The notes under the pieces are model-generated. The model saw nothing but the letters and a program-made list of their open reading frames with translations. It searched no databases and was not told where the DNA came from. A program made the position numbers and the translations under genes. A DNA stretch of 64,000 bases, taken from Polyangiaceae bacterium (GTDB lineage Bacteria > Myxococcota_A > Polyangia > Polyangiales > Polyangiaceae). Every line of letters begins with the position of its first letter. Position 1 is the stretch's first letter. Positions 3,225 to 9,379 of the stretch are shown here, one piece after another. The stretch is taken from positions 1-64,000 of the forward strand of contig JAHBVY010000014.1 of assembly GCA_019637265.1 (NCBI GenBank). Reading direction: 5' to 3'.

Positions 3225-4181
3225 ATGAGCGTCACCAAAGCAGATCTGGAGTCGAGCCTCGCTGAGCTGTCGCGCACGGTCGTCGACCCGAGGGTAGGTT
3301 TGTATGGTCCTGGGAGCGTGAATTGGAACATCGCGCGTGAGGCGATCCTGTTCGTCGGGGGCGGGCGCGCGGCGCTGCTCCAGACCGCGCACCCGTTCAT
3401 CGCTTACGGGGTGGACCAGTTCTCGGCCACCAAGACGGACCCGCTCGGGCGCTTTCGCCGCACCTTTGACAACGTCTTCGCGATGGTGTTCGGCGACCTG
3501 AATCACGCGCTGCGCTCGGCGCGGCGGGTGCACCTGGTGCACTCAAAAATCCATGGGGAAATACCTGAGGACGCCGGTCGCTTCCCCGCGGGGAGCCGCT
3601 TCGATGCGAATGACGAGGAGGCGCTGTTCTGGGTGCACGCCTCCTTGGTGGAGACGGCGCTCCAAGTCTATGACTTGCTCGTGCGCCCGCTCAGCTACGC
3701 GGAGAAGGACGCGTATTACCAAGAGTCGCGGCGCTTCGCGGCGCTGTTCGGGATCCCCGCGTCGGTTCAGCCACCTGACTTTCACGCGTTTCAGGCGTAC
3801 TGTGAGGCGATGTGGGATTCGGACACCCTGGTGGTGACGAAGCCTGCCCTCGACATGCGGCGCTTTTTGTTCTCGAGCCCCAAAGCGAGCTTCGTGCCAG
3901 CGTTCCGCTGGATCAAGACGATGACGGCCGGGTTGATGCCCGCGCGGCTGCGCGAGGCGTATCGGCTCCCCTGGTCCGCCGCGGATCGCGCGGCGTTCAA
4001 GGCCTCGGTGCTGGCGCTCCGCACCAGCTACCCGCGGCTCCCCGCGCGGCTTCGGTACCAACCGGCCTACGTGGAGGCGACCTACCGTTTGGCGGGCCGT
4101 GAGGAGCCTGATCGCTTCGGGCGCACCTTGGAGCGCTGGGTGCTGAGCGGTATCGATCGCCGCCCGCGTCGCGCGGCGTAG
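3225..4181 (+). CDS. DUF2236 / MpaB-type oxygenase family protein
   Basis: A 318-residue soluble protein. The opening segment with WNIAREAILFVGGGRAALLQ, then AHPFIAYGVDQFS, and the later RFRRTFDNVFAMVFGD and VHSKIHGEI segments are typical of the DUF2236 family, which includes MpaB and latex-clearing-protein-like haem oxygenases. The AHP histidine is a candidate haem ligand by analogy. The substrate is unknown. The ATG at 3225 has GGAGG just upstream. It stands alone, with low-complexity non-coding sequence after it. Confidence 0.85.
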   Translation: MSVTKADLESSLAELSRTVVDPRVGLYGPGSVNWNIAREAILFVGGGRAALLQTAHPFIAYGVDQFSATKTDPLGRFRRTFDNVFAMVFGDLNHALRSARRVHLVHSKIHGEIPEDAGRFPAGSRFDANDEEALFWVHASLVETALQVYDLLVRPLSYAEKDAYYQESRRFAALFGIPASVQPPDFHAFQAYCEAMWDSDTLVVTKPALDMRRFLFSSPKASFVPAFRWIKTMTAGLMPARLREAYRLPWSAADRAAFKASVLALRTSYPRLPARLRYQPAYVEATYRLAGREEPDRFGRTLERWVLSGIDRRPRRAA

Positions 4182-4590
4182 CCCAGTCGCAGCGCGTGGC
4201 TCGAGAGCTTCCCCCTCGAAGCGTGGCGAGCGCAGCTCGCAGCAGACCGAGCAAGGTCTTCTGATCGCCATGGGTTGTGGCGGGTTGGCTCGTAGGGTGG
4301 TCTATGACGGTGCGGCTCGTGAAGGGTTGGTTCGTGGGCGGTCATGACGGGTGCGGCTCGTGACGATGCGGTTCGCGACGAAGGTGGCTCAATGAAGGAC
4401 CACTGCTTTTCTGTTCACATGTCGCAGCGGGGGTGCTAGGGTCTGGCCATTGGGAGAGCGTGGGGTGGGTTGCCCGCGACTCTTCGGTAAACAAAGCCGG
4501 CCTCGAGCCAGGGGCCGTATTCGAGGCTCGCTGAATGAGCGGGCGTCGTTCGGCGAGGCGAGCCTCGTCAGCACCGCGGAGAGTTCAGGT
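4182..4590. other. Intergenic region upstream of the RecQ-like gene
   Basis: The first half is degenerate repeated text (GGTGCGGCTCGTGA and variants at about 4308-4375). The second half holds a candidate promoter at 4414-4442. The frame of the downstream gene is open back to a TTG at 4450, but that extension lacks family similarity and a good ribosome binding site. Confidence 0.45.
4414..4442 (+). promoter_or_regulatory. Candidate promoter for the RecQ-like gene
   Basis: TTCACA (4414-4419) and TAGGGT (4437-4442) are separated by 17 bases, a sigma70-like spacing with a GC-rich -10. The predicted transcript would begin about 140 bases before the ATG at 4591. This is pattern matching only. Confidence 0.3.
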
Positions 4591-7500
4591 ATGGCGCGAG
4601 CGATCGCAGCGCGAATATCCGTAAAGAAATCATCGGCGCGTGGAGCTTCCAACGCCAAGTCGCCGGCGCGCGCCGTCAGTCAGGAGGCGCCCGCTGGCGC
4701 GAAGCCTGCGAGCGGCGAGGCACCCGCGCGCGCCGTTCGCAGGAAGGCGCCGAGCGCCGGCAAGGCGCCTGCGCGCGCGGTCATCACGAAGGCGCCCAGC
4801 GCCAGCAAGGAGGCGCCCGCGCGCGCCGCCAGCAGGAAGGCGCCGAGTAGCAGCAAGGCGCCTGCGCGCGCCGCTGCGAAGCCTGCGAGCGCCACGCTCG
4901 CGGGCCGCAGCACGGCGGTGGCCAAGGCACCCGCGCGCGCCACCTCCAAGGCGCCGGCCTCCACCGCGCGCGGCAAGTCGACGCGCGCCGCCACCAAGCC
5001 GCGCGCGGCAGCCAAAGCCTCCAAGTCGCGCAGCTTTTTGGACGCGCTGGAGGCGTACCTGGCCGTCCCGGGTGCTGGTGTCGCTGCACCGGCGCGCCAA
5101 GCCACGGGCGCCGACCTCGCCGCGGATCGCGGCTCCCGCGGGGGCGCGTCTGGAGCGAAGGCCACTTCAGCGTCCGCGCGGCTCCCTGCACAATCTCCCT
5201 CCCGAGCCGCGCCCCCCCAGGCGCCCAGCCGTGCTTCGAAGTCATCTGAGCTGACTGACGACGCAAGAGTGGTCCGCCGCGCCCCCAAGTCACCAGAACT
5301 GACGATTGGAGCGCCCAGCCGTGCTTCGAATTCAGCAGAGCTGACTGACGACGCGAGGGTGATCCGCCGCATCCCCAAGTCCCCTGGGCTGACGACCGGT
5401 GCGGCCCCTCACGGCGACGTCCCCGAGACGGGGAGCTCCGCGTATGGTGGCTTCGGCTGGGCTCCGCCGGGTCGTCGGAGCGAGCGGCCCGGCGGAGCGT
5501 CCCTCGCGCGAGCGCGCGCTACCGCCGCTGAGGGCCGCGCTGGAGTCGGCAAGCGCCCAGTATCTGGCAAGCGCTCAGTGTCCGATGAACGCTCAGCTGC
5601 CGGGAGCCGCCCAGTTTCCAGGAAGCGCCTGGGCTCGGAGCACACGGAGCCTCGGCGCCTGGAGGCGTCCCGCGCCTCGTCCGACACGGGGTCTCCCCCG
5701 GCCCGCGGCGGCGCCCTGCGCGGTGAGGTAGCGACGGCTCCTGTCGTCACGCCACCAGCGACCGAGGCGCTTGGTGAGGCGGGCGCACCATCGAGCCCGA
5801 GGCCGCTTCCAATGGGCGTGAAGCGTCGGGGGGGGGACGCGGACGGCTCTCCGGGTCAAGGCGCCGCGCGCGCTCCAAGTCCTAGCGGCCCGCAGGTACC
5901 CTACGGGCGGCACGTGCCCAAGGGCTCGCGTCTGACCTATGAGGGCTCGCGCTCGGGGCCGCCCCCCGCCGGGATCACCGGCCGCATCGCGAGCAGCTTC
6001 GAGCTCAGCCCATTCCAGGCGGCTCCCATCGTCCCCGTGGCGTCCTCGGTGCGGGAGGCCGGCATCGAGCGCGCGGCGGAGCGGCTCGGGCGCCGGTTGA
6101 GCCAGGAGCAGCGGCGCCTCATCAGCATGGCCCTCACCGGCCGCGACACGCTGACGTTGCTCCCCTCCGGCTCACGTCAGGTGGGCACGGCGCTGGTCGC
6201 CGCGTCGATGATGGAGCACCCAGCGATCGTGGTGCACCCGGCGTCCACCTGGCTGAAGGTGCATCACGATCACCTGACGGCGCGCGGCGTTCCCTCGGTC
6301 TGCCTGGATGACACCCTCAGCACTCACGATCGGCGGACCCTCGTGGAGCGGGTGCGCTTCGCGCGGAGCCTCGTGGTGCTCGTCACGCCGCGCATGCTGC
6401 AGCGTGAGGCGGTGAGTCGCGCTCTGGGTCAAGCATCAGTGAGCCTGGCTGTCTTGATCGAGGCGCAGCTGTTCTCCGAGTTCTCTTCAGAGTTCGAGCC
6501 GAGCAGCGCCTGCTTGGATGACGTGCTCGAGGTCCTGGGGCGGCCGGTGGTGATGGCGTTCTCCTCGGTGGCCTCGGCGGCGGTGCGCTCGGATTTGATC
6601 GATGGGCTCAGGCTCCGTGACCCGGTGGTGTTCGACGCGCCGGTCGTGCGCACGAACATCCGGCTCCAAGTGCTGCGGTGTGAGCCCGAAGCGCGGCGCC
6701 GCATCCTGGTGAGCGAGCTCTCCGCGCTCGACCCGCCCGGCGTCGTGATCTGCAGCAACCCGCGCGAGGTGGAGGCGGTGCATCAGGCGCTCGGCGCCCT
6801 CAACATCAAGAGTTACCGCTACCACAGCGGCATGCCGCACCAGGCGCGCTTCGCGGAGCAGCACGCCTTCGCGCATCAGGGGCGCCGCGCGGTGATGGTC
6901 GCAGAGAGCGGCTTCGTGGGGCTCTCGGCGGTGGGTACGGACGATCGCGACGCCCCGAGCGGCTATGGGCTCGGGACTTGCCGTGGGGATTTGCGCTACC
7001 TGATCCACTTCCGCGCGCCCGCCTCGCTCGAGCAGTACGTGCGGGACCTCGGCTTGCTGGGGCGCGATGGGGTGCCGGCGCACGCGCTGATGCTCTACAG
7101 CCCGGAGGATCTCGAGTGCTACCCGGCGCGCCCCAGCCTGACGGCGCTCACCGCCCTGCTCGAGCTGCTCCAGCGCGGCGAGGACGTGCCCGTGACGGTG
7201 AGCGAGCTCGCTTCGCGCATGAGCGCGTCCGAGGCCGCCACCGCCGAGCTGGTCGAGGCCTTGGTCGACGCGGGTTTGGTCGTGCGCATGGGCGGTTGGG
7301 TGCGCCGGGCGCTCTCCCCCGCTCAGCTGATGAAGCGCGGCGAGTTCCTACTCGACCAACTGGAGACGCTGAGCGAGGGCGACGTGCAGCGGCGAGCGCA
7401 GGTGGGGGCGTTCGCCTCCGAGCAGCCGGAGGCGGGCTGCCGTTTCGTCTCGCTTCATCGATACTTGGGCCTGCCGGGGGGGGAGCCTTGCGGCGTCTGC

Positions 7501-7665
7501 GACCCGTGCGAGGCGAACGGCGCGAGCGCCAGCAGCGCCCGCGTCATCAGTCGGCCTGCTCAGCGGCGCTTCGAGGTGGAGGTCGAGCGCCACGGGACAC
7601 AGCTCACCACCTCGGGGGAGCCCCTCGGCTTCAAGCTGCGCGCCGCGGTCGATCGCGAGCGGTGA
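4591..7665 (+). CDS. RecQ-like protein with degenerate helicase motifs and long Ala/Pro/Lys-rich N-terminus
   Basis: A 1024-residue protein. Residues 1 to about 495 are low-complexity (KAPARA-type repeats, then Ser/Arg/Pro-rich text with a 90-base tandem duplication) and probably disordered and basic. From about residue 498 the order follows RecQ: SQEQ near motif 0, a Walker A position reading PSGSRQV (525-531) instead of PTGGGKS, an IEAQ (623-626) instead of DEAH, a helicase-C domain with SYRYHSGMPHQARF, and motif VI reading LGLLGRDG (820-827) instead of GRAGRDG. The RecQ zinc site is kept exactly: C950, C967, C970 and C973 with the canonical spacing, followed by a short tail. ATPase activity looks lost, so a structural DNA-binding role is likely. 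The ATG at 4591 is preferred over TTG 4450. Confidence 0.75.
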   Translation: MARAIAARISVKKSSARGASNAKSPARAVSQEAPAGAKPASGEAPARAVRRKAPSAGKAPARAVITKAPSASKEAPARAASRKAPSSSKAPARAAAKPASATLAGRSTAVAKAPARATSKAPASTARGKSTRAATKPRAAAKASKSRSFLDALEAYLAVPGAGVAAPARQATGADLAADRGSRGGASGAKATSASARLPAQSPSRAAPPQAPSRASKSSELTDDARVVRRAPKSPELTIGAPSRASNSAELTDDARVIRRIPKSPGLTTGAAPHGDVPETGSSAYGGFGWAPPGRRSERPGGASLARARATAAEGRAGVGKRPVSGKRSVSDERSAAGSRPVSRKRLGSEHTEPRRLEASRASSDTGSPPARGGALRGEVATAPVVTPPATEALGEAGAPSSPRPLPMGVKRRGGDADGSPGQGAARAPSPSGPQVPYGRHVPKGSRLTYEGSRSGPPPAGITGRIASSFELSPFQAAPIVPVASSVREAGIERAAERLGRRLSQEQRRLISMALTGRDTLTLLPSGSRQVGTALVAASMMEHPAIVVHPASTWLKVHHDHLTARGVPSVCLDDTLSTHDRRTLVERVRFARSLVVLVTPRMLQREAVSRALGQASVSLAVLIEAQLFSEFSSEFEPSSACLDDVLEVLGRPVVMAFSSVASAAVRSDLIDGLRLRDPVVFDAPVVRTNIRLQVLRCEPEARRRILVSELSALDPPGVVICSNPREVEAVHQALGALNIKSYRYHSGMPHQARFAEQHAFAHQGRRAVMVAESGFVGLSAVGTDDRDAPSGYGLGTCRGDLRYLIHFRAPASLEQYVRDLGLLGRDGVPAHALMLYSPEDLECYPARPSLTALTALLELLQRGEDVPVTVSELASRMSASEAATAELVEALVDAGLVVRMGGWVRRALSPAQLMKRGEFLLDQLETLSEGDVQRRAQVGAFASEQPEAGCRFVSLHRYLGLPGGEPCGVCDPCEANGASASSARVISRPAQRRFEVEVERHGTQLTTSGEPLGFKLRAAVDRER
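5221..5400 (+). repeat. 90-bp tandem duplication inside the RecQ-like gene
   Basis: Two 90-base units (5221-5310 and 5311-5400) are clearly related and encode similar 30-residue blocks that both contain SELTDDARV or AELTDDARV followed by an R-R-x-P-K-S-P motif. The duplication is in frame and lies in the disordered N-terminal part. Confidence 0.85.
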
Positions 7666-7671
7666 GCTCCA

Positions 7672-7761
7672 GCCGCGGTGCTGAGCCAAGCCGCGGTGCT
7701 GAGCCAAGTCGCGGTGCTGAGCCAAGTCGCAGTGCTGAGCTGCAGCGCGGTGCCGAGCCGT
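7672..7761 (+). repeat. Five tandem 18-bp units after the RecQ-like gene
   Basis: Units of the form GCCGCGGTGCTGAGCCAA begin at 7672, 7690, 7708, 7726 and 7744; the first two are identical and the last two diverge. The array begins seven bases after the stop codon and fills most of the gap to the convergent GMC oxidoreductase gene. Confidence 0.85.
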
Positions 7762-7861: not shown

Positions 7862-9379
7862 TCAGGCTGCTTTGGCGTGCAGTTGGAGTCGCTCGGCGAC
7901 GCGGGTCGCCAGCGCCATGATGGTGACCTGGGGGTTCACCCCGATGGCGGTGGGGAACAGGCTGGCGTCGGCGACGTAGCAGCCAGGCAAGTCCCATAGC
8001 TCACCGTTCAGGTTGACGACGGAGCCCTCGCGGCGCGCCCCCATGCGGGCGGTGCCCATCAGGTGCACCGTGAACAGCTCGAGGGTGTTGACGTCCGTTT
8101 GCAGGGTGTCGATGCGCTCGAGATCGTCAGGGCCCAGCGCTTCGTGCTGGTTCGTGAAGGGGAGGATGACGCGCTCCGCGCCGAGCTCGAAGTGCATCTG
8201 CGCGAGCAGCTTCACGCCGCGCTTGAAGCGCTGATGATCGAGCGCCGTGAGCTCGTAGCGCACGAGCGGCATGCCGAGCAGGGTGCGGCTCACGCTGCCC
8301 GAGCTGGAGTCCTCCACCAGCACGCCGCTCAGCACCATGTTCTCGTAGCGACTCATCAGCTCCCAGGCGCGCTCGCCATGGAACGGGAGGTAAGCGGCGA
8401 GCACCCCCGGCGCGACGAAGTTCTCCGCCATCAGGATGCCGTCCTCGTGAAACTCTCGGATCTGCGTGTTCTGGCTGACGCCCTTCCAGCCGTCGACCTT
8501 CTGCGGGTACACGGCGAGCACCTTCGCGTTCGGGTGACACAGGAAGTTCTTGCCGAGCTGGCCGCTCGGCTTCCCGAGGCCGTGACGCGCCAAGAGGAGC
8601 GGCGTCTGCACCGCGCCGCAGGCGATGATCACCGCGCGGGCGCGCACGCGGACGGTGCGATCGGCGCGGCGCGTCCGTGGGTTGATGGCGCGCCCGACCA
8701 CGCCCACCGCGCGACCCCCTTCGATCAGGAGCTTCTCCACTCGCACTTCCGTCAGGCACACTGCCCCTCGCTCGAAGGCGCGCGGCAGGTAGGTGACGAG
8801 GGTGGACTGCTTGGCGCCGGTGGGGCACCCCAAGGAGCAGTTGTTCGCGCCGACGCAGGCGCTCTGGTTGCGGCGGTTGGTGGTGTAGTGCCAGCCCATC
8901 TTCTTGGCGCCGGCCTCCATGATGCGGCTGTCTTCGCCGATGGACAGCTCTGACTGGAAGTTCGCGCTGATGCGGCGCTCCACCTCGCTGAAGGCGGCGT
9001 CCAGGCCCTCCACGCCCAGCTCGGCGCTGCCGGTGATGCGCTCCCAGTCGGCGAGCACGCGCTCCGGTGGGCGATAGGCCATGCCGCCGTTGATCACCGT
9101 GCTGCCGCCGACGCAGCGCCCCTCCACGTAGGGGATGGGCGCGCGCCCGACGATCATGGTGGCGCTCGCGTCGCGATAGAGGCGCGGCACGCTCTCCGTG
9201 GTGTACGCGCTGAACGAGGAGGTGGGGTGGTAGCCGCCCTCTTCGATGAACATCACGCGGTAGCCCGCCTCGGCCAAGGTCGCGCCCGCCGCGCCGCCGC
9301 CCGCGCCGGTGCCGACGATCACCACGTCGGTCTCGAAGGTTTGGTCCGCCTCGTAGTCTTCGTGTGCCAGGATGGTCAT
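7862..9379 (-). CDS. GMC family FAD-dependent oxidoreductase
   Basis: A 505-residue flavoprotein. The FAD-binding Rossmann fold begins with VVIVGTGAGGGAAG (GTGAGG at residues 23-28), the GMC signature GRCVGGSTVINGG follows, a ferredoxin-like CVGANNCSLGCPTGAKQ segment is present, and the C-terminal GMC domain has HLMGTARMG and the final NPQVTIMALA. It oxidises an alcohol-type substrate not identifiable here; such cysteine-containing GMC enzymes resemble the cholesterol-oxidase/gluconate-dehydrogenase branch. It is the last gene of an operon behind the GntR regulator and a small protein, 60 bases after the latter. Confidence 0.9.
   Translation of the reverse strand: MTILAHEDYEADQTFETDVVIVGTGAGGGAAGATLAEAGYRVMFIEEGGYHPTSSFSAYTTESVPRLYRDASATMIVGRAPIPYVEGRCVGGSTVINGGMAYRPPERVLADWERITGSAELGVEGLDAAFSEVERRISANFQSELSIGEDSRIMEAGAKKMGWHYTTNRRNQSACVGANNCSLGCPTGAKQSTLVTYLPRAFERGAVCLTEVRVEKLLIEGGRAVGVVGRAINPRTRRADRTVRVRARAVIIACGAVQTPLLLARHGLGKPSGQLGKNFLCHPNAKVLAVYPQKVDGWKGVSQNTQIREFHEDGILMAENFVAPGVLAAYLPFHGERAWELMSRYENMVLSGVLVEDSSSGSVSRTLLGMPLVRYELTALDHQRFKRGVKLLAQMHFELGAERVILPFTNQHEALGPDDLERIDTLQTDVNTLELFTVHLMGTARMGARREGSVVNLNGELWDLPGCYVADASLFPTAIGVNPQVTIMALATRVAERLQLHAKAA

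Follow-up and report, generated by a model that had tools for sequence, protein, structure and literature searches.

A putative RecQ-derived pseudohelicase family in the Polyangiaceae, with degraded catalytic motifs on a retained RecQ fold

The window analyzed in this study is a stretch of 64,000 nucleotides from a Polyangiaceae bacterium (assembly GCA_019637265.1, contig JAHBVY010000014.1, positions 1 to 64,000). The gene of interest lies at 4591–7665 on the forward strand and is recognized by its open frame and its matches to the RecQ family as a RecQ-derived pseudohelicase gene. The frame encodes 1024 amino acids from an ATG and contains no internal stop. The ATG at 4591 is favored over an in-frame TTG at 4450 because a similar start, a methionine followed by basic residues, is found in two relatives, L013 and L018. 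The gene is flanked by an MPAB_Lcp_cat protein gene (3225–4181, forward strand; PF09995, E = 2.8e-57) and a GMC oxidoreductase gene (7862–9379, reverse strand; PF00732, E = 7e-44), both of which are syntenic in relatives. MPAB, GMC oxidoreductase or GntR/FCD genes resembling those of the window lie near the homologous gene in genomes G030, G052, G021, G022, G028, G015 and G014. In G077 and G024, it is accompanied by other genes that are found at these loci. The neighbors examined at the window (MPAB, GMC oxidoreductase, GntR/FCD, radical SAM and HsdM) are metabolic and provide no hint of function. The HsdM-type N6 DNA methylase is encoded at 285–1913 on the reverse strand (PF02384, E = 1.6e-108) and presumably belongs to a type I restriction-modification system that extends past the start of the window. 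In addition, a 41-bp repeat is located upstream of the pseudohelicase gene (4282–4375), and an 18-bp tandem repeat of about 4.8 copies, CGCGGTGCTGAGCCAAGT, directly follows its stop codon (7674–7759).

The protein is beyond doubt a RecQ homologue, with a similarity far above chance. The homology occupies the last ~535 residues and extends across both RecA lobes, which was our evolutionary test of RecQ family membership. TIGR01389 matches with E = 4.1e-45 and 154 bits, below its equivalog cut-off of 640 bits, and TIGR00614 matches with E = 1.2e-33; the RecQ chains 4tmu and 1oyw of the PDB match with E-values of 1.8e-33 and 1.9e-32. No match to the Pfam DEAD model is reported for the protein, which is expected because the motifs are missing.

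Relatives were collected from 108 genomes of the same family, and the searches were then widened to the order (184 genomes) and the class (318 genomes). Proteins with collapsed catalytic motifs, termed degenerate members below, are present in 12 of the 108 family genomes, the window's own included, and represent eight genera (G000, G030, G052, G021, G022, G077, G028, G015, G014, G024, G072 and G008). The member of G030 is 52% identical to the window protein, identity between most genera is 30–37%, and L034 is very divergent. Degenerate members score 538–771 bits in the profile search, the intact family member L013 scores 487, and the best proteins from outside the family, whose motifs are intact where read, reach ~440; no further member was found at comparable scores outside the family in the order and class genomes. 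Plasmid records yielded ordinary RecQ only, at low identity. No intact short RecQ from the order-wide list falls in the 12 genomes with a degenerate member, but genomes with such a RecQ number just 11 in the family, too few for this absence to be informative. A canonical HRDC-type RecQ is encoded elsewhere in the window's genome (G000:C18), and a canonical-length RecQ-like match occurs in 11 of the 12 genomes. The patchy presence indicates that the pseudohelicase is dispensable. Two further observations concern RecQ diversity in the family: G044 contains three short-RecQ matches (C145, C561 and C125), and many genomes carry a second RecQ-like group with open frames of 1300–1600 codons (e.g., G053:C1 and G011:C123).

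None of motifs I–III, V and VI is intact in the window protein. According to the sequence and its alignment with relatives, the former Walker A motif (motif I) reads PSGSRQV (residues 525–531; 6163–6183, forward strand), and the former DEAH motif (motif II) reads IEAQ (residues 623–626; 6457–6468, forward strand). Motif III is SSV instead of TAT, and motif V is interrupted by an insertion (6913–6963, forward strand) that is shared by 11 of the 12 degenerate members and missing in the intact relatives. The former motif VI, RDLGLLGRDG (7042–7071, forward strand), contains LGLLGRDG at residues 820–827 and begins with Arg818, a position at which all 12 degenerate members have Arg and all 14 intact relatives have Gln. 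The window protein thus has none of the features used here to identify an active RecQ, namely the Walker A Lys, the DE of motif II, the TAT of motif III and the QxxGRAGR of motif VI. An earlier reading of this DNA from its sequence alone had named the losses PSGSRQV, IEAQ and LGLLGRDG together with the cysteine spacing C-x16-C-x2-C-x2-C, all of which are confirmed. The loss in motif VI is, however, partial. The Gln and the first Arg (the position of BLM R979) are gone, but the second Arg, equivalent to the proposed arginine finger R982 of BLM (PMC4446433), is kept in nine of the 12 degenerate members, the window protein among them.

The suspicion that a sequencing or assembly error, or a frameshift, conceals a normal RecQ found no support and is refuted. 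An intact relative aligns over the whole core in one frame, no second frame restores the motifs, and the nearest homologues, which come from independently assembled genomes, share the losses. The loss of catalysis in the window protein is well supported by its sequence.

Across the degenerate members, the Thr of motif I, the second Thr of motif III, the Gln of motif VI and the Asp of motif Ia are each kept in none of the 12. The Walker Lys survives in two, L017 and L018, in which the GKS of motif I and an EEA(Q/H) sequence are still present. Nucleotide binding may therefore be retained in some members. A nucleotide-dependent switch or weak helicase, in which ATP bound by some members moves the lobes without the canonical residues, would draw on these remnants and on the Arg equivalent to BLM R982. 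We consider this improbable, however, because the window protein lacks the Walker Lys, the motif II Asp and the TAT of motif III, and because the Gln of motif VI is replaced in every degenerate member.

The fold appears to have outlasted the motifs. An AlphaFold2 model of the window protein (m53baf80f3b10), built on a 26-sequence alignment, has a mean pLDDT of 85.4 and a pTM of 0.83, and in this model the RecQ fold of the helicase core is kept. The model superimposes on D. radiodurans RecQ (4q48) with a Z-score of 36.1 and 2.7 Å over 391 aligned residues, and on BLM, RECQL5, WRN and E. coli RecQ with Z-scores of 31–36; the span over RecQ helicase structures as a whole is 27–36. The modeled order is lobe 1, lobe 2, a winged helix, a 34-residue helix, the zinc site and a disordered tail. 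RecA-like lobe 1 (6058–6594, forward strand) is the most degraded part, with a mean similarity of 0.23 among degenerate members vs. 0.55 among intact relatives, although its fold is kept in the model; RecA-like lobe 2 (6595–7116, forward strand) is better conserved (0.38 vs. 0.49) and is likewise modeled. The winged helix, a MarR-like HTH that separates lobe 2 from the zinc site (7138–7308, forward strand), is predicted from weak MarR/Rrf2 profile matches at residues 852–900 and from the model, in which residues ~850–906 form an H-H-H-E-E arrangement with a pLDDT around 90. The zinc site, C950-x16-C967-x2-C970-x2-C973 (7438–7509, forward strand), is invariant in all 26 intact and degenerate sequences, including the 12 degenerate ones. 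Pfam RecQ_Zn_bind is reported for L012 and L013 and not for the window protein.

The earlier reading also stated that the domain order of RecQ is preserved, which holds for the two lobes and the zinc site but not for the remainder: the winged helix lies ahead of the zinc site, after which neither the sequence profiles nor the model place an RQC winged helix or HRDC domain. Only 51 residues, modeled as disordered, remain past the last Cys. The distance from motif VI to CxxCxxC is 139 residues in the window protein vs. 67 in the canonical RecQ L036, and it is 139–143 in L013, L020, L021, L022 and L023. The window protein therefore has the layout by which we recognize a short HRDC-less RecQ, a winged helix placed ahead of the zinc site, with ~140 residues from motif VI to CxxCxxC. 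Because the intact relatives have it too, this layout is older than the loss of catalysis.

The degenerate proteins and the intact L013 form one clade with 100% support. A clade of degenerate members only has 98% support in the helicase-core tree vs. 17% in the full-length tree, the best tree of which nevertheless still contains it. Two placements of L013 within the degenerate group, which would imply that catalysis was lost several times independently, were rejected by the AU test (p = 5e-8 and 0.006), and a branching of L034 outside L013 was marginally rejected (p = 0.038). A single origin of the degenerate group is likely but not certain on these sequence data, and it is also favored by the fixed residues and the motif V insertion. 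In addition to Arg818, these residues include Arg702, which is Arg in all 12 degenerate members vs. Lys in 13 of 14 intact relatives. Together with the insertion, they indicate new constraint rather than simple decay. Pairwise dN/dS (NG86) of the core is 0.41 for the window protein and L010, 0.23 for L012 and L014 and 0.44 for L017 and L018; these are rough values, as synonymous divergence is high, and they fall inside the range of neighboring genes (0.08–0.55). Values of 0.23–0.44 indicate that the gene is constrained. The window protein thus combines the three properties by which we define a pseudohelicase: a helicase-derived fold, degraded motifs and retention under constraint.

It might be argued that the gene is a functionless former helicase in slow decay, a pseudogene in the making. 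The patchy distribution and the fast divergence noted above are consistent with this explanation, as is genome G038 (L114 5839–8875, G038:C288). There, the MPAB and GMC genes are adjacent in the same order, ~80 bp apart, with no RecQ-like sequence detected between them; the intact relative of G038 lies elsewhere in the genome. However, open frames of ~500–1000 codons have persisted in eight genera, and the dN/dS values, the invariant zinc cysteines, the two fixed clade-specific residues and the common new motif V insertion all speak against decay. We therefore regard a decaying gene as a poor explanation, at a level only slightly above that of the nucleotide switch.

The first ~490 residues (4591–6060, forward strand) form a basic, low-complexity head that is rich in Ala, Pro and Ser and resembles histone H1 in composition (K+R 16%, D+E 7%); where the ends of heads were modeled, their pLDDT is mostly <50. 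The heads of other members are likewise basic and Ala/Pro-rich, with K+R of 16–28% and D+E of 2–8% in members with at least 130 readable head residues (contig ends truncate L015 and L024). The head of the window protein is encoded with two in-gene repeats, one of 45 bp (4718–4873) and one of 90 bp (5221–5395); the latter is an in-frame duplication that is consistent with growth through internal repeat expansion. The head repeats differ between relatives, e.g., KKKAPA in L011 and PPVKRVAKAK in L012. The intact short RecQ L013 (G038:C299) also has a basic head, with 39% K+R, so the head is probably older than the loss of catalysis. Short motifs recur outside the folded core. VRVGRLPPR is present in five members from three genera (L011, L012, L014, L017 and L018), and the related VRRGRLGPR is present in L034. 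The C-terminal motifs are (R)RPA...F(S/T)V and LTAKL-DF-R, and the disordered tail of the window protein (7516–7662, forward strand; pLDDT about 40) carries the short motif RPA..RF-V that is common to the clade. In the L012 model, no docking of the short motifs onto the core is seen (motif pLDDT 41–53). The core has a mean net charge of +2.1 in degenerate members vs. +10.2 in intact relatives, a high value that is mostly due to L013, L067, L069, L070 and L074. To judge from this charge, the core itself may bind DNA less strongly. Because the core is less basic, the head probably carries much of any DNA binding.

We believe that the window protein is a pseudohelicase derived from a short HRDC-less RecQ of the Myxococcota and acts as a non-catalytic static scaffold, a reading to which we assign a probability slightly above one half (about 0.55). 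In at least eight genera, the core has lost its motor and retained its fold and metal site, a pattern suggestive of a structural or docking role rather than an enzymatic one. The RecQ fold, the winged helix and the zinc module are retained, although an ATP-driven unwinding cycle would not be possible. The long basic head would hold DNA or the nucleoid non-specifically, the core of two lobes, winged helix and zinc site would offer a surface for docking or for recognizing DNA structures, and the conserved short motifs of the disordered head and C-terminal tail would recruit a partner. Unwinding would be left to the separate canonical RecQ of the genome. We infer that the pseudohelicase has no ATPase activity, binds DNA and recruits partners. 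The non-catalytic nature proposed by the sequence-only reading is upheld by the twelve related proteins with their shared class of losses and their constraint. Its suggestion of a DNA-binding scaffold is still conjectural; the basic head favors it, but the core carries less positive charge than its counterpart in the nearest intact relatives. A more specific version, which we advance only tentatively, is a lineage-specific architectural protein derived from RecQ, in which an H1-like head and a frozen core would bridge or mark DNA junctions and the tail motifs would recruit partners.

Somewhat less probable than this version is a regulatory role, in which the protein would be an antagonist or adaptor, either of the canonical RecQ or of another repair complex, and would act mainly through protein contacts rather than DNA binding. 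It would occupy the DNA structures or the partners that these proteins use and thereby modulate them, much like AddB and RecC within their nuclease complexes. The core has lost net positive charge and kept its fold and zinc site, the short tail motifs are conserved, a canonical RecQ is present in the same genome, and the inactivated helicase-like domains of AddB and RecC do operate within complexes. However, none of the conserved neighbors examined resembles a repair partner.

RecQ proteins have been studied as motors, and a retained RecQ without a motor is a natural separation-of-function experiment, in which whatever stays conserved must serve a job other than that of a motor. The graded loss of motifs, with GKS kept in L018 and not in the window protein, allows the order of loss to be reconstructed. 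If the architectural version is true, RecQ changed here from a motor to a scaffold for chromosome structure or recombination.

The window protein shares two RecA-like lobes and a RecQ-type zinc site with the RecQ helicases of E. coli and D. radiodurans and with BLM, WRN and RECQL5. Unlike these proteins, it lacks catalytic motifs I–III, V and VI, has its winged helix before the zinc site with no RQC or HRDC after it, and carries a long basic head. The intact short HRDC-less RecQ proteins of the Myxococcota (L013, L066, L067, L070 and others) are closest in the tree and have the same order of lobe 1, lobe 2, winged helix and zinc site, and in L013 a short basic head is present as well; however, they keep PTGxGKS, DEAH and GRAGRDG. 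The core also matches the PADLOC models of the defense proteins DpdF and PsyrT, but these models give far better matches to the intact L013 (PDLC02864, PDLC02870, PDLC02861 and PDLC03928, with E-values down to 2e-121). A defense role was rejected, as the matches are due to RecQ ancestry and no partner gene lies among the neighbors examined. Defense calls from such models alone would therefore be misleading in this family.

RecC and AddB contain inactivated helicase-like domains of the SF1 type within a nuclease complex. The window protein would resemble them in the reuse of a helicase fold without ATPase activity and differs from them in its family and in the nuclease complex to which they belong. 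The PriA pseudohelicase of D. radiodurans, in which motifs I and II are degraded, does not hydrolyze ATP and still binds DNA and DnaB (PMC4504706). It is, like the window protein, a bacterial homologue of a DNA helicase with degraded motifs I and II that has been retained in its lineage; unlike the window protein, it is not a RecQ, its loss of activity is experimentally established, and the loss is described for motifs I and II. Utp25/Def, a pseudohelicase with a DEAD-box fold and dispensable motifs, is a structural factor (PMC9539457) and thus offers another case of a helicase fold in such a role, although in eukaryotic ribosome assembly. The earlier reading knew of no described family of this kind. 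For RecQ, we likewise found no described pseudohelicase in the literature covered, which mostly excluded subscription papers and so gives no proof, but pseudohelicases as a kind have been described. We therefore file the proteins reported here under this established kind, to the short list of which they would add a RecQ-derived family as the new element.
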